From an uncultured Tolumonas sp. (lineage in GTDB: Bacteria; Pseudomonadota; Gammaproteobacteria; Enterobacterales; Aeromonadaceae): a DNA stretch of 64,000 nt. The translations under genes were made by a program, and so were the position numbers. The first letter of the stretch is position 1. Each line of letters begins with the position of its first letter. The notes beneath the pieces are model-generated. The model did no database searches. It was given only the letters and a program-made list of their open reading frames with translations, and was not told where the DNA came from. Positions 15-13,573 of this stretch are shown here, one piece after another. The stretch covers positions 1,251,001-1,315,000 of the forward strand of contig NZ_OY782757.1 in assembly GCF_963678185.1 (NCBI RefSeq), read 5' to 3'.

Positions 15-548
15 ATGAACCAGTTATCCCAAGAAGAAAAACAAAAGATCTTACAGGATCGGGCCCGACAACTCGCCAGCACACCGGCCTATCAGCAGGA
101 TGAGCACGAATGCATTGATATCACCCGTTTTGAATTACACGGTGAACACTATGCATTCGAATCACGCTACATTCGGGAGATTGTTCCCGTTAACCATGTT
201 ACGCCCCTGCCCTGTGTGCCCGCTTTTGTAGCCGGTATCATGAATCTTCGTGGCCGCATTCTCTCTTTATTGCATCTGGACAGGCTACTCGGCTTAGCCT
301 CTGCCGGACAAACGCCGATGCAACAAGTCATTATTCTCAGTAATGACAACATGGAATTCGGTTTGCTGGTGGAACAAATCAGTGGTGTCGCCCAATTGCC
401 GTTGTCCAAGATTCAGGATGAATTACCAACGCTCAGTGAGCAAGCACAGCGCTATCTAAGAGGGCTAACGCCCGATCGCCAAATATTATTGGATGCACAA
501 TTATTGCTGAACGACCCGGCATTATGTGTTGATGAAGAAATTAACTAA
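15..548 (+). CDS. cheW: CheW-type chemotaxis adaptor protein
   Basis: This adaptor would link a chemoreceptor to the CheA kinase in the signalling array on the inner membrane. The 177-residue product has one CheW domain (about residues 35-170); the G-I-M-N-L-R-G-R stretch near residues 74-81 is the typical CheW signature. There is no signal peptide or membrane segment. A good ribosome binding site (GGAAGGA, bases 1-7) precedes the ATG. It is the first complete gene of a plus-strand operon and is followed 23 bp later by the receptor gene. In Wsp-type clusters a CheR methyltransferase and a second CheW lie nearby. Neither is inside the window, so they may lie upstream of base 1. Function is clear from the family; assignment as a WspB or WspD equivalent is inference. 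Confidence 0.9.
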   Translation: MNQLSQEEKQKILQDRARQLASTPAYQQDEHECIDITRFELHGEHYAFESRYIREIVPVNHVTPLPCVPAFVAGIMNLRGRILSLLHLDRLLGLASAGQTPMQQVIILSNDNMEFGLLVEQISGVAQLPLSKIQDELPTLSEQAQRYLRGLTPDRQILLDAQLLLNDPALCVDEEIN

Positions 549-571
549 AAATAATTAAGAGGAATGACTCC

Positions 572-2302
572 ATGAAATGGACGATTGGCAAAAAACTGGC
601 ACTGTTAGGCAGTCTGATGCTGGCAGCACTGGGCATCATGGGTGTCGTTACCTATAACAACATTGGCCGAGTGATCGAAAATTCGACTGCGCTATCGCGA
701 ACTTTTAGCGTAATTGACGCTAATAATGCCATTGCACCGAATTTGTTTTCTGCCGAATCAGCCCAACGCTCTTATTTACTCAGCGGCAGCCCTGCTTATC
801 TGCAGCTGTACCGTGAGTCCGTCGATAAAACCCGCGCGGCACTCAGCCATCTGCGTGAACTGGCATCGAATGAAGAGTCAGCACGGTTGACGAACGAGCT
901 GGAAGATATGCTGAATTCGCGTCTCAGCAGCCTGGAAATGGGCATCACCATGTATGACAAACATACTTTGGATGAATATGTTCAGCTGATGAAAGACGGT
1001 GTCGGCATTGAGTTGATGAAAAAAGTCTCTCAAAACCGTGATGCCATAGATACATTGGAACGCCATCTGGCACAGCAACGTGCAACTGAACTCACCGCCA
1101 GCAATCAGTTTGCGCAAGCGTTCATCTTATGGGGCACGCTATTAACCGTTAGCATCATGGCGGCTGCCGCCGTCTTTCTGGTGCGTAGCATCAGTAACCC
1201 GTTACATGAGCTGACCGATACCGCAAACCGGATTTCCAAAGGAGATTTATCCCAACGTACAACCTCGATCACCAAGCGCAGCGATGAAATCGGTATTTTG
1301 TCAGAAGCATTTGAGCAGATGAATGATTACCTGCAGCGGATGTCAAATGTCGCCCGTGCACTGGCTGATAACGATCTATCGGTAGATAGCAGCCCATTAT
1401 CGGAAAAAGATGCGCTGGGACACTCCTTTGCCGCGATGACCGCGAATTTCCGCAAAATGATTGCCGAAGTGAAAGATGCCGCCAAACAAATGAGTGGCTC
1501 TTCTGCCCAGATCGCAGCCCTAACCTCCCAGTTGGCGGCCAGTTCCACCGAAACAGCCGCCGCCGTCAGTGAAACTTCCACAACATTGGAAGAGATCAAA
1601 GTCACCGCCAATCAGGTGAACCAGAAATCGGCATTTGTATCGGAATCAGCGCGCAGCACCGCTCAGATGACGCAAAACGGGCAAAAAAGTGTGAATGAAA
1701 CACTCACAGGCATGAACAAAATCCGTGAACAGATGAATTTCATCGCGGAAAGTATTGTACGGTTAAGCGAACAGAGTATGGCGATTGGTGAAATCATCTC
1801 CTCGGTCGGCGATCTGGCCAGCCAATCCAATCTGCTCGCCGTTAACGCCTCTATTGAAGCAGCCAAAGCCGGTGAACACGGCAAAGGCTTTGCCGTTGTG
1901 GCGCAGGAAGTCCGCAGCCTGGCCGAGCAATCAAAAGAATCCACCGAACAGATCCGTCGTATTCTGAATGATATTCAAAAAGCGATCAGCTCAGCGGTTA
2001 TGGCAACCGAACAAGGCGGTAAAACCGTCGAAGTCAGCGTGTTGCAATCAGCTGAAACTGATAATGCCATTCAGGTGATCGGGCAAGGTGCAGGTGGTAC
2101 TGTACAGGCTGCCGCACAGATCCTGGCCTCTACCAACGAACAGGTTGCGGGTATCAATCAGGTTGCTATTGCGATGGATAATATCCGCAGCGCCAGCGAC
2201 CAGATAGTGATCAGTATGCGACAAGCGGAAGATGCCACCAGCTCGCTGAATCAGATGAGCAGCAAGCTGTGGAGTCTGATTGAACGCTTTAAGGTGAGCT
2301 GA
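572..2302 (+). CDS. Methyl-accepting chemotaxis protein with CHASE3-like sensor
   Basis: This is a transmembrane chemoreceptor. Membrane segments lie at about residues 8-28 and 184-204. The periplasmic part between them has the CHASE3-type pattern (Q-R-S-Y-L-L-S-G-S near residues 65-73, followed by a long helical region). A HAMP linker follows at about 205-257, then the cytoplasmic methyl-accepting coiled coil to residue 576. The conserved signalling tip is around residues 415-450 (N-A-S-I-E-A-A-K-A-G and G-K-G-F-A-V-V-A). The last base of its stop codon region overlaps the start of the following CheA gene (TGATG), suggesting translational coupling. The ligand cannot be deduced. In the Wsp system the receptor (WspA) responds to surface contact; whether this one does is inference from context. 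Confidence 0.93.
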   Translation: MKWTIGKKLALLGSLMLAALGIMGVVTYNNIGRVIENSTALSRTFSVIDANNAIAPNLFSAESAQRSYLLSGSPAYLQLYRESVDKTRAALSHLRELASNEESARLTNELEDMLNSRLSSLEMGITMYDKHTLDEYVQLMKDGVGIELMKKVSQNRDAIDTLERHLAQQRATELTASNQFAQAFILWGTLLTVSIMAAAAVFLVRSISNPLHELTDTANRISKGDLSQRTTSITKRSDEIGILSEAFEQMNDYLQRMSNVARALADNDLSVDSSPLSEKDALGHSFAAMTANFRKMIAEVKDAAKQMSGSSAQIAALTSQLAASSTETAAAVSETSTTLEEIKVTANQVNQKSAFVSESARSTAQMTQNGQKSVNETLTGMNKIREQMNFIAESIVRLSEQSMAIGEIISSVGDLASQSNLLAVNASIEAAKAGEHGKGFAVVAQEVRSLAEQSKESTEQIRRILNDIQKAISSAVMATEQGGKTVEVSVLQSAETDNAIQVIGQGAGGTVQAAAQILASTNEQVAGINQVAIAMDNIRSASDQIVISMRQAEDATSSLNQMSSKLWSLIERFKVS

Positions 2303-4614
2303 TGGAAAGCATGGATCAAGAGCTGCGGGCCCGGTTGCTGGAAACGTTTCTGATTGAGGCGGGAGAACATGTCGCCTCGATAAACCACGCCCTGAGCGCG
2401 CTGGAACAGAACCAATCTCCAGCCGGGCAACTAGAGATTATCTTCCGTTGTGCACATAGCCTGAAAGGCGGTGCGCGCATTGTGAATCTGCAGCTTATTG
2501 AATATCTGTGCCAATCACTGGAAAGTTTACTGTCACGCCTGCGGCAGGGGGATATTGCGATCTCCCAGTCTTTATTGAATTTGTTGCATGAAACCGTTGA
2601 TATCATCGATGTTATCTTAGCCAACAGCTCACCCGACATGCCCCCCCTGACGGTAAAAAGCACCTGCATGCAACTACGTCAACAGCTCGATAAAGCAACC
2701 GTTGAACCAGTCATATCTGTACCAACAGAGAAAACTGCGCAACCAGATATAGCCGAACCGACAGTTGTCGCGGAGTTACCCTCAGAAGCTGTTGCAACAA
2801 ATCCAGTTACAGCGCAGCCAGAGCAACATCAAGCGGCACTGAGAACGTCAACGGCTGTCAGCGATAACCCAGTTCCATCAGCTTATTCAGCGCCCAAAAA
2901 TAATGCCTTGCAGGATACAGTACGAATTCCTGCGTCTCGATTGGATAATTTGCTGGTACAAGCAGAAGAAATGATGGCACTTAAACTGGCCCTACGTCAG
3001 CATGTGCTAGGTCTGAAAACCTTACAGGAAAATCTGAATCAACTACGTCGCGAGCAAGCAAATAAAACAGAACTGAACAAAGATGGCATGCAGCAACTCG
3101 ACCGAACCTTGCTCGGTTTAGGTAAACAACTGCAGCACCTGAAACGTCACAGCGAAGAAGGTTTCCGTCAGGCCGGCAGCATGATAGAAAACCTGATCTT
3201 AGATGCCAAATCACTGCTGATGTTTCCGTTTTCTTTTGTCGCCGAAGGGTTTGCCCGTTCCGTTCGCGACATTGCCCGCGAACAAGGTAAAGAGGTCACC
3301 TTTCAACTCAGCGGTGAAACATTGGAGTTAGATCGGCGTATCTTGCAGGAGCTGAAAGATCCGTTAGTGCATTTACTGCGCAACAGTATTGATCATGGCA
3401 TTGAATCGCCCGCAGTTCGAATACGCAATAATAAACCACAGCGTGCCACTATTTCGCTCAGTGCCGGTTATACCGACAACGGCAAAGCAGAAATTATCCT
3501 GTCCGATGATGGTGCTGGGATCAATTTGCTACAAATCCGCCAAGTAGCCATAGATAAAGGCTTTATCACGCCTGAACAAAGCGCGCAAACCGATGAGCAG
3601 GCTCTGATCCCATTAATATTTCGCTCCGGTTTTTCCTCCAAACAAGATGTCTCTCATTTGTCCGGCAGAGGCTTAGGCTTGGCGATTGTGCAGGAAAAAG
3701 TTGAAAAACTTGGCGGCACAGTAGATGTCAGCTCACAAGCCGGTAAAGGAACACAATTTAGGCTGATCTTGCCGCTGACATTAGCCTCTTTCCGTGGCAT
3801 ACAAATTCGCTTAGGCGAGCACCGGTTTGCCGTTCCAACGTTAAATGTCGTGCGGGTTTTGCGCTTACCATTAGATCATATCTATACCGTAGAAGGCCGG
3901 GAAACATTGCAGGTGGAAGAACGGATAGTACCTATCGTTGCGATGTCGGGAATATTAGGTATACAAGCTGATCCGGCTGACCTACAGGAATATCGCATGC
4001 TGTTATTACTGGGTAACGAGCATGAACAGATCGCCTTCGCCGTAGATGAAGTGATTGGTGAAGATGACCTGTTGCTGAAACCACTGGGTCCGCAATTGAT
4101 ACGCGTTCGTAATCTTGCTGGCGCCACTTTATTAGGTGATGGCACTGTATTACCGATCTTGAATGCGCGCGACCTGCTGAAATCAGCCCAAGGTGGGCAC
4201 GCGCAACCGGTCAAAGTACACGACATTCCAATTGGCAAAGTTGAACCTATTCGTCACCGTATTTTGGTGGTGGATGATTCGATCACATCCCGAACCTTGC
4301 TGAAAAATGTTTTGGAATCGTATGGTTACGAAGTAAAAACAGCCTGCGATGGCACTGATGCACTAGCGTTATTACAAACCGAACCGTTTGATTTAGTCAG
4401 CTCTGATGTCGAAATGCCGCAGATGGATGGCTTCGAACTCACCGCCCGTTTACGCGCTGATGAACGGTTCGCTCGTTTACCCATCGTGCTGGTCACCAGT
4501 TTAGAATCTCAAGATGACCGACAACGTGGTGTTGAAGTCGGCGCTGATGCCTATATTGTTAAATCCAGCTTTGATCAGAGCAACTTGCTGGAAATTATCC
4601 GCAAGTTTATCTAG
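2302..4614 (+). CDS. cheA: Hybrid CheA-type histidine kinase with C-terminal receiver
   Basis: This chemotaxis-family histidine kinase takes input from the receptor and CheW and phosphorylates response regulators. Domains in order: an Hpt domain with phospho-acceptor His52 in A-H-S-L-K-G-G-A; a proline/alanine-rich linker (about 130-205); a dimerisation/coiled-coil region; a HATPase domain with N-box H-L-L-R-N-S-I-D-H-G, G1 D-D-G-A-G-I and G2 G-R-G-L-G-L-A; a CheW-like domain; and a receiver with phospho-acceptor Asp702 in S-S-D-V-E-M-P. A fused C-terminal receiver is the hallmark of WspE-type and other alternative-function CheA proteins. The P2 CheY-binding domain of flagellar CheA is not recognisable. 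The gene overlaps the receptor gene and is followed 24 bp later by cheB. Confidence 0.93.
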   Translation: MESMDQELRARLLETFLIEAGEHVASINHALSALEQNQSPAGQLEIIFRCAHSLKGGARIVNLQLIEYLCQSLESLLSRLRQGDIAISQSLLNLLHETVDIIDVILANSSPDMPPLTVKSTCMQLRQQLDKATVEPVISVPTEKTAQPDIAEPTVVAELPSEAVATNPVTAQPEQHQAALRTSTAVSDNPVPSAYSAPKNNALQDTVRIPASRLDNLLVQAEEMMALKLALRQHVLGLKTLQENLNQLRREQANKTELNKDGMQQLDRTLLGLGKQLQHLKRHSEEGFRQAGSMIENLILDAKSLLMFPFSFVAEGFARSVRDIAREQGKEVTFQLSGETLELDRRILQELKDPLVHLLRNSIDHGIESPAVRIRNNKPQRATISLSAGYTDNGKAEIILSDDGAGINLLQIRQVAIDKGFITPEQSAQTDEQALIPLIFRSGFSSKQDVSHLSGRGLGLAIVQEKVEKLGGTVDVSSQAGKGTQFRLILPLTLASFRGIQIRLGEHRFAVPTLNVVRVLRLPLDHIYTVEGRETLQVEERIVPIVAMSGILGIQADPADLQEYRMLLLLGNEHEQIAFAVDEVIGEDDLLLKPLGPQLIRVRNLAGATLLGDGTVLPILNARDLLKSAQGGHAQPVKVHDIPIGKVEPIRHRILVVDDSITSRTLLKNVLESYGYEVKTACDGTDALALLQTEPFDLVSSDVEMPQMDGFELTARLRADERFARLPIVLVTSLESQDDRQRGVEVGADAYIVKSSFDQSNLLEIIRKFI

Positions 4615-4638
4615 CCATAGGATGAGGACAACACAATT

Positions 4639-5676
4639 ATGATACGGGTGTTAATTGTTGATGACTCGGCCACTGCTGCACACATACTGAGTCGCCTGTT
4701 CAGTAGTGACCCTGAGTTTTCCGTGGTAGGCATAGCCAGTAATGGCACTGATGCCATCCAAATGGCTGCGAAACTGAAACCCGACATTATTAGCATGGAT
4801 GTGATCATGCCGGATATGGATGGTTTTGAGGCCACCCGAAAAATCATGTCCACCCAACCGACCCCGATTGTCATTGTCAGTTCAGATCAAGTCAGCATGT
4901 CTTTTCGTGCCTTGGAAGCAGGTGCGCTGGCAGCTATTGCTAAGCCTCAGCTGGATAATCAGGCAGCACTTAATAATTTTCGCGATGAACTGTTATTTAC
5001 CTTTCGTGCGATGGCAGAAGTTAAGCTGGTTCGACGAACACAGCGTACAAATCTCGCGGTTCCAGTGCAACCATCAAAAATAACCAAACCCTCGCCAGCA
5101 AAAATTGTTGTTATCGGTGCCTCGACTGGTGGCCCGCAAGCCTTGCAAGAAATATTAAAAGATCTACCAGCCTCATTCCCGTTACCAATTATTATTGTGC
5201 AACATATCTCCACCGGTTTTACCGATGGGTTAGCGCGTTGGTTAAGCCAAGGCTGTGTGTTGCCAATACAGGTTGTTACCGAAAATCAGCTGCTGCAGGG
5301 CGGACACGTTTATATTGCCCCGGAAGAAAAACACCTCGAAATAACCAAAGATAAACGATTAAAACTAGGCACTAGCGATAAAGAACATGGGGTCTGCCCT
5401 TCTGTTTCCCACTTTTTTCGTTCAGTAGCCCAAACCTATCATTCATCTGTCATTGGCATACTGTTAAGTGGCATGGGGCGTGATGGCGCGGCCGAATTAA
5501 AACTATTGCGAGACTTAGGGGCAACCACTATTGCACAAGACCAAGAAAGCTCAGTAGTGCATGGCATGCCAGGCGAAGCAATCCGACTCGGTGGCGCAAG
5601 CCATATTTTACCCGCGTCAGCTATAGCATCCACCCTCTGCAGTCTTATTACACCATTCGATAACATCGGATGTTAG
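4639..5676 (+). CDS. cheB: CheB-type receptor methylesterase/deamidase
   Basis: CheB removes methyl groups from glutamates of the chemoreceptor when its receiver is phosphorylated, giving adaptation. The 345-residue protein has a receiver domain (about 1-120, phospho-acceptor Asp54 in S-M-D-V-I-M-P-D-M-D-G) and a methylesterase domain (about 150-340). The Ser-His-Asp triad is visible: Ser162 in G-A-S-T-G-G, His189 in I-V-Q-H-I and Asp282 in G-M-G-R-D-G. In Wsp clusters the equivalent is WspF, a negative regulator. The matching methyltransferase CheR is not in the window. The 3' end overlaps the most upstream possible start of the next gene by 7 bp. Confidence 0.93.
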   Translation: MIRVLIVDDSATAAHILSRLFSSDPEFSVVGIASNGTDAIQMAAKLKPDIISMDVIMPDMDGFEATRKIMSTQPTPIVIVSSDQVSMSFRALEAGALAAIAKPQLDNQAALNNFRDELLFTFRAMAEVKLVRRTQRTNLAVPVQPSKITKPSPAKIVVIGASTGGPQALQEILKDLPASFPLPIIIVQHISTGFTDGLARWLSQGCVLPIQVVTENQLLQGGHVYIAPEEKHLEITKDKRLKLGTSDKEHGVCPSVSHFFRSVAQTYHSSVIGILLSGMGRDGAAELKLLRDLGATTIAQDQESSVVHGMPGEAIRLGGASHILPASAIASTLCSLITPFDNIGC

Positions 5677-7274
5677 TTGGATTAACTTTTATGTTAGAAA
5701 AACATCGTGGCACATCAGTACTAATCGTCGAAGATAGCGCAACACAGGCAGATCAATTACGTTTTTTCCTGGAAAAACATGGCTTCCTCGTCACAGTCAC
5801 CTGCAATGGTAAAGAAGCCTTAGCCTCACTGCAGCAGCATATTCCAGCGGTGGTGATCAGCGACATCGTGATGCCACAACTCAATGGTTACGAACTCTGT
5901 ACGGCCATCCGTAAAAACCCGCAAACTGCACATTTACCCGTGGTGTTATTGACCGCCCTTTCCAGCCCACGTGATATTTTGCTGGCGCTAGAATGCAAAG
6001 CAGATCATTTCATCACCAAACCATACAGTGAAACGTATTTGCTCTCCCGCATGGAAAGCATTCTGGAAATGATCCGTTTACGTCAAAACGGACAGCTCCC
6101 CGAGGCTTCAGAATCTGACATCTATTTCCAAGGGGAATGGTTTCATATTTCTGCAGCAAGACAGCGCATATTAGATCTGTTGATCTCAACGTATGAATCG
6201 ATGGTACTGCGAAATCAGGAGTTATTGACCGCTCAAAATGAACTGCGGGACAGCAATCTCAAGCTGGAACTGGCTGTTGATGAAGCAACCACCGCAAAAC
6301 AACAAGCACACATCATGCTGGAAGAATTATCCCGACGGGACAGTTCGATTCGGAAGACCAATGAAGAACTGCATTTAATTCATAGTATTGAATCGTTAAT
6401 TAATCAGAATAACGATTGGCAGTCATTATTCCGCTTAGTTAGTGAAAAATTATGTAACGCCAGACAATTCGGCATCCGCGACTTTGTTCGCATCAGCCTG
6501 ACAGAGCTTGATAACACGGCAACAGATGAACCGGTATGTCTGCAAGACGCCTGTTGCCATCGATGCGAACTGCCATCTGCCGTGGTTGAGCACGCAGGTC
6601 CAATATCAATGTCATGTCATCCAACCGCTACAGCAGCCGGTAAAATGACCATCCCGTTATTAGCTAAGAATAAAATAGTCGGCGTATTGTGTTGTCAGAT
6701 AGAAACAGGCTATCAACTCAGTGAACAGCAAAGAGAATTGTTAAGCTCCCTTGGTCGACAACTGGGCATGGCTTTGGAAAATATTCGTTTATATGAAGAA
6801 GCCCGCGCGCTGTCATTGCATGATCCTTTAACCGGATTAGCCAACCGCCGGTATCTGGATATCAGTTATGCCAACCAAGTCGCTCGCTCCAAACGCCATG
6901 CACAGCCGTTTTCGCTGATGTTATTGGATATCGACCACTTCAAACTGTATAACGACAACCATGGCCATGGCCAAGGTGATCGTATTCTGATCCAAGTCGC
7001 TGATGTTCTGCGAGACTCGATCCGCAGCACCGATCTGGCGGTTCGCTATGGTGGCGAAGAGTTTTTATTGCTGATCAGTGATAGTAAAGCGGATGCTGCC
7101 TTTGAGTTGGCGGAACGGATCCGCCTTCAAATCGCCGGCGAAATTGGTGTAACTATCAGTATTGGTATTGCTGACTATCGTATAAACGACAGCTTAGACA
7201 CACAAATTTTGCGCGCGGATATGGCTCTTTATAAAGCCAAAAACGCCGGACGGAACCGGGTAGAAGTGGAATAA
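5670..7274 (+). CDS. Response regulator with GAF and GGDEF domains (probable diguanylate cyclase)
   Basis: This is the likely output of the chemosensory operon: a receiver-controlled enzyme making cyclic-di-GMP from two GTP. Residues are counted from the start at 5670. Receiver domain about 10-130, phospho-acceptor Asp65 (I-S-D-I-V-M-P); a helical coiled-coil linker about 165-235; a GAF-like domain about 240-380; a GGDEF domain about 385-534. The active-site loop is G-G-E-E-F at 461-465. The inhibitory I-site R-S-T-D (452-455) lies exactly five residues before it, so the enzyme should be active and product-inhibited. WspR of Pseudomonas is a shorter REC-GGDEF protein; the GAF insert is extra. 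The GAF region carries a cysteine cluster (Cys290, 295, 296, 299, 316, 341, 342). The ATG at 5691 (M-L-E-K-H) is an equally good start; neither has a strong ribosome binding site. Confidence 0.9.
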   Translation: MLVGLTFMLEKHRGTSVLIVEDSATQADQLRFFLEKHGFLVTVTCNGKEALASLQQHIPAVVISDIVMPQLNGYELCTAIRKNPQTAHLPVVLLTALSSPRDILLALECKADHFITKPYSETYLLSRMESILEMIRLRQNGQLPEASESDIYFQGEWFHISAARQRILDLLISTYESMVLRNQELLTAQNELRDSNLKLELAVDEATTAKQQAHIMLEELSRRDSSIRKTNEELHLIHSIESLINQNNDWQSLFRLVSEKLCNARQFGIRDFVRISLTELDNTATDEPVCLQDACCHRCELPSAVVEHAGPISMSCHPTATAAGKMTIPLLAKNKIVGVLCCQIETGYQLSEQQRELLSSLGRQLGMALENIRLYEEARALSLHDPLTGLANRRYLDISYANQVARSKRHAQPFSLMLLDIDHFKLYNDNHGHGQGDRILIQVADVLRDSIRSTDLAVRYGGEEFLLLISDSKADAAFELAERIRLQIAGEIGVTISIGIADYRINDSLDTQILRADMALYKAKNAGRNRVEVE

Positions 7275-8306: not shown

Positions 8307-11300
8307 CTACTCAAATATCAGTTCAACGTCTTGCTTGCCCACCTGGGCCCGCAGCTCGTTCAGTAGTTGATCGGTTGGCGTTACCCGCCATTCGGTCCCC
8401 AACGTCAGTTGTCCCTGTGCACCCGACCTGCGATAGCAGATATGCACAGGACACACCCCGGCACGATGGGGCGTTAATATCTCAGGCAGATTACGCATAA
8501 AGCGATCAGCCATTTCAGATTGCGTGACTTTAATCCGCAATCCCCGCGCATGACGACCACGCGCATCTTCAATCTCTAACACTTCGCGGGCCGACATTTT
8601 AATGCCCCCCGCATACTCGTCAAAGCTGATTTGACCGGTTACCACTAAAATCCGGTCTTTTTGCAACAATGACTCATACCGCTCCAACGCTTCACTGAAC
8701 AAAGTAATGTCCAGACGCCCGGAACGATCATCTAATGTCAGTATGCCCATCTTGCTGCCACGCTTGGTCACCATGATACGAGCATTTAACACCAGACCAG
8801 CAGCCACCGCCGGTTTATCACGTTCTGTTGGCTGCAGATCGCATAAACGGCCGGAAGTATAATGCTTTAGCTCTGCCAAGTATTGATTTATTGGATGGCC
8901 CGTTAAATATAAACCGAGAGTTTCACGTTCGCCATCTAACCATTTCTGATCCGACCACTCAGGTACATCAGCAAACGTCGGGGTAGGTAATACGCCATCG
9001 TCTGCAAAAATGTCACCAAACAGATCATTTTGCCCCAACGCTTTATCTTTCGCTTGCTGCTCGGCTGCCTTCATCGCCTCTTCCAGCGACGCCATTAATG
9101 CCGCACGGTGCGGACCTAACCGATCTAGTGCGCCAGCATAGATCAGTTTCTCCATCACACGTTTATTAAGTCGTTTGATATCAACACGGTTACAGAAATC
9201 GAACAGATCTTTAAATGGCCCACCCTCATTACGGGCAGCAATAATCGCTTCAACCGGGCCTTCACCGACACCTTTGACTGCACCAATACCGTAAACCACT
9301 TCACCCCGTTCATTCACGGTAAAACGATATTGCCCAGAATTCACATCAGGCGGGATCAGTTTCAGCCCCATCCGCTGGCATTCATCGACCAAGGTCACGA
9401 TCTTGTCGGTGTTGTCCATATCGGCGGTCATTACTGCCGCCATGAATTCAGCTGGGTAATGCGTCTTCAACCACAATGTTTGGTAGGAAACCAGCGCATA
9501 GGCAGCCGAGTGCGATTTGTTAAATCCGTAGCCGGCGAATTTTTCCACCAGATCGAAGATGTGCATCGCCAACTCGCCATCGACGCCATTACTCATCGCA
9601 CCGGATTCAAAACCAGAACGCTGTTTCGCCATCTCTTCTGGTTTTTTCTTACCCATCGCACGGCGCAACATGTCGGCGCCGCCCAGCGTATAACCAGCGA
9701 GGGTTTGCGCGATCTGCATAACCTGTTCTTGATACAGGATGATGCCGTAAGTCGGCTCCAGAATCGGCTGCAACGACTCATGCTGCCACTGAATATCGGG
9801 GTAGGAAATCGCTTCACGCCCATGTTTACGGTCGATGAAGTTATCCACCATGCCAGACTGCAATGGGCCAGGGCGGAACAACGCTACCAAAGCGATCATG
9901 TCTTCAAAGCAGTCTGGTTGCAGACGTTTGATCAGATCTTTCATACCGCGCGATTCTAACTGGAATACCGCAGTGGTTTCTGAGTTTTTCAGAATTTTGA
10001 AAGACGTTGGATCATCCAGCGGGATCGCCGCAATATCGACCGGCGGTTTCCCCTCTTTCGCCAGACGTGGATTGATCATATCCAGCGCCCATTTGATGAT
10101 AGTCAGCGTACGCAAGCCGAGGAAGTCGAACTTCACCAGCCCCGCATATTCCACATCATTTTTATCAAATTGGGTAACCGGCTGTAAGCCTTGGTCATCA
10201 CAATAGAGCGGAGCAAAGTCAGTAATTTTTGTCGGTGCGATAACCACACCACCGGCATGTTTACCGGCATTACGTGTGACACCTTCCAGCTTACGCGCCA
10301 TATCAATCAGCGCTTTAACTTCCTCATCCTGCTCGTATAACTCAACCAGCTTTGGTTCAGCATCAAATGCTTTCGCCAGTGTCATACCCGGGTCGGGTGG
10401 GATCAGCTTCGATATACGATCGACAAATCCATACGGGTGCCCCAGCACACGCCCCACGTCACGCACTACCGCTTTGGCCGCCATGGTACCGAACGTGATG
10501 ATCTGCGATACCGCTTCACGGCCATACATCTGGGCGACGTGGTCAATTACCTCATCGCGGCGGTCCATACAAAAATCGACGTCGAAGTCCGGCATCGAGA
10601 CACGTTCCGGGTTCAGGAAACGTTCGAACAGCAAATCGAGCGCCAGCGGATCCAAATCAGTAATTTTCAGTGCATACGCAACCAGACTACCCGCCCCCGA
10701 ACCACGCCCCGGCCCGACAGGAATATCGTTATCTTTCGACCACTGGATAAACTCCATAACGATCAAGAAGTAACCAGGAAAGCCCATCTGGTTGATAACT
10801 TTTAGCTCGATATCCAGACGCTCATCGTAAGCGAGGCGTTTTTCTGCTCGTACAGCCGGATCAGGGAAGAGAAACTCCAAGCGATCCTCCATCCCTTCTT
10901 TCGATTTCATGACCAGAAAGTCTTCTGTGGTCATATCGCCCGTTGGAAATTGTGGCAGAAAGTATTCGCCCAACCGGACGGTAACATTACAGCGTTTCGC
11001 GATTTCAACACTGTTGATTAATGCTTCTGGAATATCCTTGAACAGCTCACACATTTCATCTTGTGTGCGCATATATTGCTGATTACTAAACCGTTTTGGA
11101 CGGCGAGCATCATCTAGCGTATAACCGTCATGGATGGCAACACGGATCTCATGCGCGTCAAAATCATCTTTATTCAGGAACACTACATCGTTGGTGGCGA
11201 CAACAGGTAAATCCCGTTGTATCGCTAACTCAACTGCCATGTGCAGATAAGTTTCTTCGTCTAAACGGCCAGTACGGATCAGTTCCAAATAAAAGCGATC

Positions 11301-11789
11301 GGCAAAATGCTGCTGGTAAAACGCCGTACAACGCTCGACCATCGCCTGATTGCCTTTCAGCAAGAATTTACCGATATCCCCCATCCGTCCACCGGATAGC
11401 AAAATAACACCACCAGCGTGTTCCGCTAGCCATGCTTTATCGATAACCGGACGTCCTTGAATATGACCGCGAAGAAAGCCTTTGGAGATCAATTGGATGA
11501 GGTTTTGTTGTCCGGCGTTATCCATCGCCAGACCAACCAAGCGAAACAGTTCATCGCCCAGCTCTTCACTTTGCACCCAGAAGTCGACACCGATAATAGG
11601 CTTAATGCCTTTACCGTGCGCATCACCATAAAAACGCACCAAGCCGCTTTGGTTCATCTGGTCTGTTAACGCCATGGCCACCATTTTATCTTCGGCAACG
11701 CGCGCGACTAATGGCTTGATCTTTTGCAGACCATCCACCATCGAAAAATCAGAATGAATATGAAGATGAACGAAACGCGGTTCGGCCAT
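8307..11789 (-). CDS. dnaE: DNA polymerase III subunit alpha
   Basis: DnaE is the catalytic subunit of the replicative DNA polymerase holoenzyme. At 1160 residues it has the standard length. An N-terminal PHP domain opens with H-L-H-I-H-S-D-F-S. The family C palm follows with catalytic Asp401 and Asp403 in P-D-F-D-V-D-F (numbering identical to E. coli). Then come the beta-binding region and a C-terminal OB-fold/tau-binding region. The ATG at 11789 begins M-A-E-P-R-F-V-H-L, as expected. It lies 12 bp after rnhB and 18 bp before accA on the same strand, consistent with one transcript. Confidence 0.98.
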
Positions 11790-11801
11790 GATGTTTCCTG
11801 T

Positions 11802-12395
11802 TTAGACGAGGCCTAAAGCCAGTTTAACCGGTTTAAAACTACGACGATGTACGGATAATGCGCCATGCTCAGCCAAGGCAGCCAAATGCTGCGCCGTAGG
11901 ATAACCTTTATGCTGAGCGAAACCGTATTGCGGATATTGCAGATCTAATTCTGCCATTTCTCGGTCACGCGTTACTTTCGCTAAGATAGAGGCAGCACTG
12001 ATTTCTGCGACCAGACTATCGCCTTTCACCACGGCTTGCGAAGGCATCATCAGTGCAGGACAACGATTACCATCAATCAGCACAAATTCAGGTTGGATAT
12101 GTAATCCAACTACAGCACGCTGCATGGCCTTCATTGTGGCCTGCAAAATATTGAACTCATCAATTTCTGCAGCAGAACAACGACCAATAGCAAACGCCAA
12201 AGCATTTTCACGGATAATATCAAACAATGCTTCGCGTTTTTTTTCCGATAATTTTTTGGAATCGTTAAGACCAGAGATAGGTCGTGCTGGGTCAAGGATC
12301 ACGGCCGCGGTGACGACATCCCCGACCAGCGGACCACGACCAACTTCATCCACACCGGCAATTAACTGGTATGGAGGGTAGTTAAATGTGCTCAT
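11802..12395 (-). CDS. rnhB: Ribonuclease HII
   Basis: RNase HII cuts the RNA strand of RNA-DNA hybrids and starts removal of single ribonucleotides misincorporated into DNA. The 197-residue protein has the family motif [10 protein letters not shown] with the catalytic Asp-Glu pair, plus the conserved V-L-I-D-G-N and [11 protein letters not shown] segments that carry the remaining acidic residues. Its ATG overlaps the stop of lpxB by 4 bp (ATGA), so it is probably translationally coupled. The lpxB-rnhB-dnaE order is the common gammaproteobacterial one. Confidence 0.97.
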
Positions 12396-13573
12396 ATACG
12401 CCCTTGTAATACGTCGAGAACAGCTTGTGCCGCTTGTTTATCCGCATCACAGCGGATCAATTCGTGCAAATGGGTAAATTCATTTAGTAATGCCTGATTA
12501 TTTTGTTGCAGATAACCGCTAACTGCTGCGGCTAATTTATCCGGCGTACAATCAGGTTGGATCAGTTCAGGCACTAATTTTCGGCCCGCTAATAAATTAG
12601 GTAACGAAAAGGTGCGGATTTTTACTAATTTTTCACCAATCCAAAACGTCAATGGTTTTACTTTATACGCGACCACCATCGGACGCTTCACCAGCATTGC
12701 TTCTAGTGTTGCAGTGCCCGATGCCAGCAAAATAACATCCGCCGATGTCATGACTTGTCTGGCTTGGCCATCCACTAGCGTCATCGGTAATTCAGGTGCG
12801 ATTTGCTGTTTAATGCTTTCAAATTGCTGGCGACGCCGCGCATTCACCAATGGCACCACAAATTGCAAGGTTGGATATTGCGCACGCAATAACTGACATG
12901 CTTGTAAAAATGGTGGCGCCAGCATTTCGACTTCACCGCTGCGACTACCCGGCAATACCGCCAATACGGGGGCATCAAGCTTCAACGCCAGCAGTTCTCT
13001 TGCCGGCGCAGCGGGTGACGTCAGTGGGATGGCATCCGCCATGGTATGACCAACAAACCGACATGGTGCGTTATGTTGATCATAAAATGCTTTTTCAAAC
13101 GGCAGAAATGCCAACACCATATCTGTCGCCGCTTTGATCTTGTGGATCCGGCTCTGTCGCCATGCCCAGACTGATGGGCTAACGTAATGGATGGTTTTGA
13201 TACCAGCTTGTTTGAGCTTAAGTTCGACGCCAATATTAAAATCGGGAGCATCCACACCAATAAAAATATCCGGTGGGTTTTCTTTAAAATAACGAATGAT
13301 TTGCCGACGAACCTGCAGTAAGCGCGGCAAGCGGCCCAGTACTTCCACCAGCCCCATCACCGAAAGCTCTTCCATCTCGAACAAGGTCTCGATACCCAGT
13401 TCCTGCATACGCGGACCAGCAATACCGACAAATTCACAATCAGGATGGAGTTGTTTGAGTTGACGCATCAGACCCGCAGCAAGAATATCGCCGGAAACTT
13501 CTCCGGCGATAATACCTATACGCAGCGGCCGCTTGATAGCGGATAGATCAAGGGCGAATGATGCCACGCTCAT
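12392..13573 (-). CDS. lpxB: Lipid-A-disaccharide synthase
   Basis: LpxB is a peripheral inner-membrane glycosyltransferase that joins UDP-2,3-diacylglucosamine and lipid X into the lipid A disaccharide. The 393 residues include the N-terminal G-E-V-S-G-D segment, the long conserved [12 protein letters not shown] stretch and the nucleotide-binding region with [10 protein letters not shown]. It starts inside the 3' end of lpxA (26-bp overlap) and ends overlapping rnhB by 4 bp, so the lpxA-lpxB-rnhB reading frames are tightly packed. Confidence 0.97.

Follow-up and report, generated by a model that had tools for sequence, protein, structure and literature searches.

The stretch of DNA analysed here, called the window, comprises 64,000 nucleotides of an uncultured Tolumonas sp. 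(contig NZ_OY782757.1, positions 1,251,001 to 1,315,000) and opens inside a chemosensory operon. The operon consists of seven genes spanning ~9.2 kb, which encode in order CheW, CheR-TPR, a second CheW, a CHASE3 receptor, CheA-REC, CheB and a REC-GAF-GGDEF output regulator. It begins before the window: the first CheW and CheR-TPR lie directly upstream of base 1 on the same contig, where the initial annotation of this DNA had suggested looking for a cheR and another cheW. Judged by its phylogeny and gene content, the operon is a chemosensory system of the alternative cellular functions (ACF) class and not a variant of Wsp, the system to which it had been likened. It is probably a seven-gene ACF cassette of a lineage distinct from Wsp, with cyclic di-GMP (c-di-GMP) as its predicted output. 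Its genes and features are as follows; loci fetched for comparison carry the prefix L and genomes the prefix G.

L009:9084-9611, upstream of the window: CheW no. 1
L009:9604-10986, upstream of the window: CheR-TPR (TPR matches weak, above the Pfam cut-off)
15..548, + strand: CheW no. 2, for receptor-CheA coupling (Pfam CheW)
572..2302, + strand: membrane chemoreceptor (Pfam CHASE3-HAMP-MCPsignal)
2302..4614, + strand: CheA with fused C-terminal receiver (Pfam Hpt-HATPase_c-CheW-REC, the last as Response_reg)
4639..5676, + strand: CheB methylesterase with N-terminal receiver (Pfam REC-CheB_methylest)
5670..7274, + strand: output regulator REC-extension-GAF-GGDEF, a predicted phosphorylation-controlled diguanylate cyclase
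5718..6050, + strand: receiver domain of the output regulator, with D65 the phospho-acceptor by position
6066..6338, + strand: receiver extension (residues about 133-223), predicted as a beta-hairpin followed by a long helix
6348..6785, + strand: GAF domain of the output regulator (weak Pfam match, E 2e-6, above Pfam's cut-off)
6816..7262, + strand: GGDEF domain of the output regulator (strong Pfam match)
7023-7034, + strand: I-site RSTD (regulator residues 452-455)
7050-7064, + strand: GGEEF (regulator residues 461-465)

The five genes inside the window all lie on the + strand and are separated by at most 24 nt or overlap slightly; their coordinates and Pfam domains agree with the initial annotation, which had described them as one tight operon with an intact GGEEF loop and I-site and no flagellar genes or CheY. 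Upstream, the first CheW gene overlaps CheR by 8 nt, and 4 nt separate the end of CheR from the second CheW open frame. CheA carries the Hpt histidine H52 and the receiver aspartate D702 and gives no Pfam match to a CheY-binding (P2) domain. In the published criterion used here, the ACF class is recognized by a multidomain response regulator together with CheR-TPR in a chemosensory cluster (PMC3447774; papers are cited by PMC identifier, each for the part of its text that was available). Both are encoded in this cluster, with no flagellar or pilus gene and no free-standing CheY gene adjacent.

The lineage of the operon was assessed with a CheA tree (P4-P5-REC) of 57 rows chosen from the fetched loci, comprising three Tolumonas, nine Wsp and three Halomonas-type rows, two from the genome's other clusters and 40 other ACF rows. 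Near-identical Tolumonas copies were omitted from the trees. The Wsp rows come from Cupriavidus (two), Novosphingobium (one) and six other genomes, four of these belonging to one family taken as Pseudomonadaceae; the output of one Wsp row, L235, matches the solved WspR structure 3bre over 333 residues (E 4e-170). Tolumonas falls within a 34-row clade (support 99/99) that includes rows labelled Betaproteobacteria, Thermodesulfobacteriota, Verrucomicrobiota, Bacteroidota, Nitrospirota and others, and the nine WspE rows form a separate clade (100/100). Constraining the Tolumonas and Wsp CheA sequences to group costs 42.5 log units and is rejected by the approximately unbiased (AU) test (p = 0.0098). 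A concatenation of CheR, CheA and CheB (34 rows, 1011 columns) groups Tolumonas with 18 clade rows (100/100) and likewise rejects the union with Wsp (p = 0.0025). The initial annotation had named a CheA phylogeny as the check on its reading, and the outcome is divided: a flagellar system is rejected, since union with the genome's two other CheA proteins fails (AU p = 0.005) and no flagellar genes are adjacent, and the expected union with WspE is rejected as well. Those two proteins belong to two further CheA clusters, one beside flagellar genes (recognized by eye from translations) and one other; a CheV-CheR pair lies by flagellar rod genes elsewhere in the genome.

Gene order was then compared across the 57 CheA-tree rows minus the genome's two other CheA. 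A methyl-accepting chemotaxis protein (MCP) gene directly precedes CheA in 29 of the 34 clade rows, in none of the nine Wsp rows and in 7 of 12 others; the trait counts against Wsp, yet is not private to the clade. Where a Wsp row has a receptor, its gene is the first, whereas the Tolumonas receptor sits between the second CheW and CheA. The definition of Wsp in PMC8552884 asks for wspA-wspF order to be conserved and for identity of 30% or more, and the position of the receptor therefore places the operon outside the order part of that definition. The receptor hairpin measures 150 residues from tip to C-terminal end, against 149-151 in the measured Wsp-operon receptors. Between genomes G000 and G002, receptor identity is 78% in the periplasmic part and 98% in the signalling part. 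Pfam was run on eight outputs or receptors and then on ten receptors, and other domain labels across the loci come from profiles built from few seeds. In these runs CHASE3 was found in the clade receptors of L105, L116, L122, L125, L131, L136 and L165, and in that of L168, which is outside the tree. Two Pseudomonadaceae-type WspA proteins scanned with Pfam have a 4HB_MCP_1 sensor and not CHASE3. A Wsp-order operon at L234 (G408, 8528-12613) does encode a receptor with Pfam CHASE3, so this sensor does not separate the Tolumonas operon from Wsp.

One Wsp-type locus was recorded outside the expected hosts. On a Novosphingobium humi plasmid (L118, 7062-13294), CheR-TPR, CheW, CheA-REC, CheB and REC-GGDEF are encoded in Wsp order, with the CheA in the Wsp clade and no receptor found among the frames kept upstream. 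The host is an alphaproteobacterium, whereas in the available part of PMC8552884 Wsp is reported from beta- and gammaproteobacteria only.

The output regulator carries a further mark of lineage. A search with its first 370 residues against 398 genomes of the phylum, scoring at most five candidates per genome, returned a strong block of matches that span residues about 13 to 220 at E 1e-44 to 1e-29; after a gap in E value come weaker ones, beginning at 1e-25, most of which align with the receiver. This break in match strength indicates that the receiver bears a ~90-residue extension marking a subfamily. The search gave 25 extension-bearing frames in loci trimmed to 1.5 kb flanks: a histidine kinase part is present in 22, two are GAF-PAS-PAS-GGDEF (one of them traced on into EAL), and in one no domain was found beyond the extension. 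A profile of the extension built without Tolumonas scores 57-62 bits in eight of nine Tolumonas entries, the ninth being a GGDEF-only contig piece. The best of 200 shuffled extension sequences scores 5.2 bits, and the extension was not found by this profile in any of seven WspR proteins, the best of which reaches 6.7 bits. The AlphaFold model of the regulator (mean pLDDT 73.6, pTM 0.37) predicts a beta-hairpin at residues 149-160 and a long helix at 162-223.

Across the same three groups of rows, an extension-bearing output lies downstream of CheA in 28 of the 34 clade rows and in none of the nine Wsp rows or the 12 others, one of which (L106) has such an output on the opposite strand. The 28 clade outputs comprise 15 kinases, 10 GGDEF-EAL proteins, one without an output domain and two with GGDEF only, both from Tolumonas. 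By profile match, the extension is common to the hybrid-kinase and GGDEF-EAL outputs of the lineage. The last gene of the lineage's operons usually encodes a receiver with the hairpin-plus-long-helix extension, then often GAF or PAS, and then a kinase or GGDEF-EAL. Several variants of the arrangement were recorded: another GGDEF-only output in a Synergistaceae metagenome-assembled genome (MAG) outside the tree (L151); CheB fused in frame to a receiver-extension-kinase (REC-CheB-REC-extension-HisKA-HATPase) at L100, L101 and L104; extra GGDEF genes within the operon, between CheA and CheB (L125:12393-15361 and L137:2867-4198); and the same operon type on a contig labelled as an ANME-2 archaeon MAG (L124), reflecting either transfer or a binning error.

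These results bear on the initial proposal, which amounts to a genuine Wsp system with wspA relocated to between wspD and wspE and a GAF domain inserted into WspR. The operon has the same seven parts as Wsp, namely CheR-TPR, two CheW, CheA-REC, CheB and a receiver-controlled GGDEF, and its receptor hairpin is about the length of that of WspA. Against this, the CheA tree (p < 0.01) and the concatenated tree both reject the union, the gene order fits the other lineage, and the receiver extension was found in none of the seven WspR proteins searched with the profile. The Wsp variant was rejected as a candidate on these grounds, and we regard it as very unlikely. The receptor following CheW, the CHASE3 sensor and the GAF domain in the output are real features; as oddities relative to Wsp they do not hold, being ordinary in the operon's own lineage. 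What stands of the earlier reading is that the operon is chemosensory and non-flagellar and that its output is a predicted diguanylate cyclase; its membership in Wsp falls.

The GAF domain is best read as an inherited part of the output and not as an insert into WspR, GAF after the extension being frequent in the lineage. A GAF profile built without Tolumonas scores 21-25 bits on the Tolumonas sequences, against 6.2 for the best shuffle. Cysteines C295, C296, C316, C341 and C342 are kept in all seven Tolumonas sequences aligned across the domain, and among the 20 non-Tolumonas proteins whose extension leads directly into GAF, 16 have a CxC-x17-C pattern. The spacing lies within the [2Fe-2S] cluster motif of AirS from Staphylococcus aureus, Cys-X7-Cys-X-Cys-X17-Cys (PMC4601167). 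In alignment, C295 and C316 fall on the first and last cysteines of the lineage pattern, C296 adjoins the first, and the middle cysteine is not in place. An iron-sulphur reading of the Tolumonas GAF, with its partial fit to the AirS motif, is thus offered as a lead only.

From these observations an alternative can be drawn in which the lineage is the same and a ligand or the redox state of the GAF domain is the main switch of the GGDEF domain, with the chemosensory core only tuning it. The frequency of GAF after the extension, the shared CxC-x17-C spacing and the five kept cysteines speak for this arrangement. It is nevertheless unlikely: the lineage comparison covers three of the four cysteines of the AirS motif, the middle one of the pattern is displaced in Tolumonas, the GAF is poorly modelled, and the phosphorylation residues of both receiver and CheA are present. 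That the output enzyme takes in a second signal, as the initial annotation suggested, is possible.

For the GGDEF domain, descent from the GGDEF-EAL outputs of the lineage by loss of EAL is weakly rejected (AU p = 0.039), and the tree sets the Tolumonas domain apart from those outputs with no firm grouping with any other. Exchange of the catalytic end would be the simplest reading. An earlier GGDEF tree, with badly cut rows and very long branches, gave a GGDEF of the same family as nearest neighbour (97/86), which was not repeated in the replacement tree.

Several points weigh against the assignment of the operon to a lineage of its own. Grouping Tolumonas with Wsp is not rejected by the AU test on CheB (p = 0.249), CheR (p = 0.185), the output receiver (p = 0.105) or the GGDEF domain (p = 0.126, which also leaves a WspR-like origin of that domain admissible); single short genes, as these tests suggest, do not decide the lineage. 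Most Wsp rows, those outside the named genomes, owe their label to gene order and to resemblance to Cupriavidus WspE. Six of the 34 clade rows have no extension-bearing output, although in L059, L139 and the Tolumonas fragment L216 the contig stops at or soon after CheB. The loci are also a selected sample in which L098, L102, L103 and L105 were found through the output regulator, which biases the extension count upward; L106, outside the clade, was fetched in the same way. When these four and the three Tolumonas rows are set aside, the extension is present in 22 of 27 rows, and for two of the five lacking it (L059 and L139) the contig ends within about 0.4 kb of CheB. The GAF domain is weakly recognized by Pfam and modelled at low confidence, with residues 279-322 poor in the AlphaFold model.

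As a distinct ACF cassette, the operon would function through a series of steps that, like the signal itself, we infer; its gene content, domains, residues, lineage and empty site are observed. The CHASE3 receptor would sense an envelope or external cue and, via the two CheW proteins, control CheA autophosphorylation, with CheR-TPR and CheB adapting the receptor. CheA would hand on phosphate to CheB, to the output regulator's receiver and to the fused receiver within CheA itself, the last probably a sink. Once the output receiver is phosphorylated, the change may be relayed through the hairpin-and-helix extension and the GAF domain to GGDEF pairing and c-di-GMP synthesis, which the I-site would limit. 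The output keeps the receiver, extension and GAF typical of the lineage but ends in a lone GGDEF domain. A Wsp-like function of the operon is plausible, and nine PilZ matches in the genome, not all of them separate genes, are possible readers of c-di-GMP.

The diguanylate cyclase assignment is a prediction, and the genome encodes two further che systems, each with a CheA of its own. The output could accordingly be inactive as a diguanylate cyclase or make another dinucleotide, with the operon acting mainly by protein contact or by cross-talk with those systems. Given the GGEEF and I-site, their conservation in the aligned Tolumonas orthologues and the strong GGDEF profile match, this is the least probable of the alternatives considered. 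A bolder proposal joins two parts: that a kinase or GGDEF-EAL lineage independently gained a Wsp-like c-di-GMP output in Tolumonas by catalytic-end exchange, and that the cysteine-cluster GAF makes it a two-input gate, with CheA relaying an envelope cue and GAF a redox, iron-sulphur or nitric oxide cue. The two together are doubtful, though conceivable.

The cassette varies as a unit within the genus. It is flanked by an AMMECR1 gene on the same strand and by accA on the other strand (named by eye). It lies between these two genes in G000, G002, G005 and G009, whereas in G007 (where they are about 50 bp apart), G004 and G003 accA comes straight after AMMECR1. The G003 genome reaches only 63% completeness, yet the empty site is within its assembled part. 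In G008 a diverged copy adjoins AMMECR1 at one end, and a GGDEF piece adjoins accA at the other. The filled and empty sites thus indicate that the seven genes behave as one block, present or absent at one site in the genomes examined; synteny of this block in further genomes of the genus puts the observation beyond chance. The operon CheA occurs in 7 of 11 genomes of the genus, G006 also having part of the output gene. Among 75 genomes of the family, CheR-TPR matches extend past query residue 304 only in this genus; elsewhere they have E values of 6e-37 or weaker and cover the CheR domain only. A tree of three flanking genes from eight genomes, without an outgroup, leaves the empty-site genomes unresolved (support 35/59) and does not decide between gain and loss.

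Further upstream, L009:6561-9035 holds a radical-SAM gene on the opposite strand and a MEMO-like gene (both named by eye), followed by AMMECR1 (Pfam). The end of AMMECR1 is 48 bp from the first CheW on the same strand, which makes read-through transcription possible. At each end of the operon, scans found a single promoter-like site, located on the other strand, and no terminator.

Among known systems, Wsp (WspABCDEF-R of Pseudomonas and Burkholderiales) shares the parts list, including CheR-TPR, two CheW and a receiver-controlled diguanylate cyclase, as well as the receptor hairpin length and a CheA-REC without a P2 match; WspE is described as lacking a regulator-binding domain and having a C-terminal receiver (PMC5907407), with which the Tolumonas CheA agrees. 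It differs in CheA clade, in receptor position and in WspR, a two-domain REC-GGDEF protein, whereas the Tolumonas output has the extension and GAF between REC and GGDEF. The closest likeness is to the ACF lineage CheW-CheR/TPR-CheW-MCP-CheA/REC-CheB-REC.extension-X, found in Rugosibacter (L122), Nitrosospira (L135), Geobacter (L147), Stutzerimonas (L152), Dyella (L165) and others, which shares the gene order, CheA clade and extension, with a CHASE3 receptor in some and GAF directly after the extension in many. The 26 other outputs counted comprise 15 histidine kinases, 10 GGDEF-EAL proteins and one without an output domain found, whereas Tolumonas has GGDEF alone; the GGDEF-only output and the cysteine-rich GAF are the unusual features of the Tolumonas operon.

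In Rhodospirillum centenum Che3 (CheA3-CheS3), alike by description, a CheA with a receiver targets a separate protein, the output, at its N-terminal receiver; that output, CheS3, has a sensor domain but is a kinase with two receivers and PAS (PMC3868531). There, CheA with a mutated fused receiver phosphorylated the N-terminal receiver of the output, and the fused receiver was proposed as a sink (PMC3868531); by analogy this is the nearest experimental support for the proposed phosphotransfer. Halomonas cluster 2 is a Wsp-like ACF cluster with a GGDEF output and CheR-TPR, differing in its Hpt-REC-REC-GGDEF output, extra CheY and order (PMC5907407), and Halomonas-type clusters form a separate clade in the CheA tree. 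Comamonas Flm was considered as a relative; it is described as being of the type IV pilus (Tfp) class with a single-domain regulator (PMC8880074). A review gives ACF and Tfp as the chemosensory classes acting on c-di-GMP (PMC8846402). Multidomain regulators in clusters with CheR-TPR were reported in 2012; in some of them a GAF or PAS domain accompanies GGDEF, EAL or kinase, and sensing of extra signals was proposed (PMC3447774). As far as that text goes, the general kind and the second-signal idea were therefore already known. No literature on Tolumonas chemosensory systems was found, nor any named description of this operon lineage in the literature searched, which is no proof of absence from print. 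As far as searched, three things are new: where the operon is placed, the lineage marked by a common extension, and within it a compact output ending in GGDEF alone.

A parts list identical to that of Wsp need not mean Wsp: it may mark an ACF lineage in its own right, seen here in several phyla, with an exchangeable output end. If the Tolumonas output is a working diguanylate cyclase, the lineage would offer a natural comparison of one core wired to a kinase, GGDEF-EAL or GGDEF via the same receiver extension, for which the presence or absence of the whole cassette between Tolumonas genomes would be a ready-made control.

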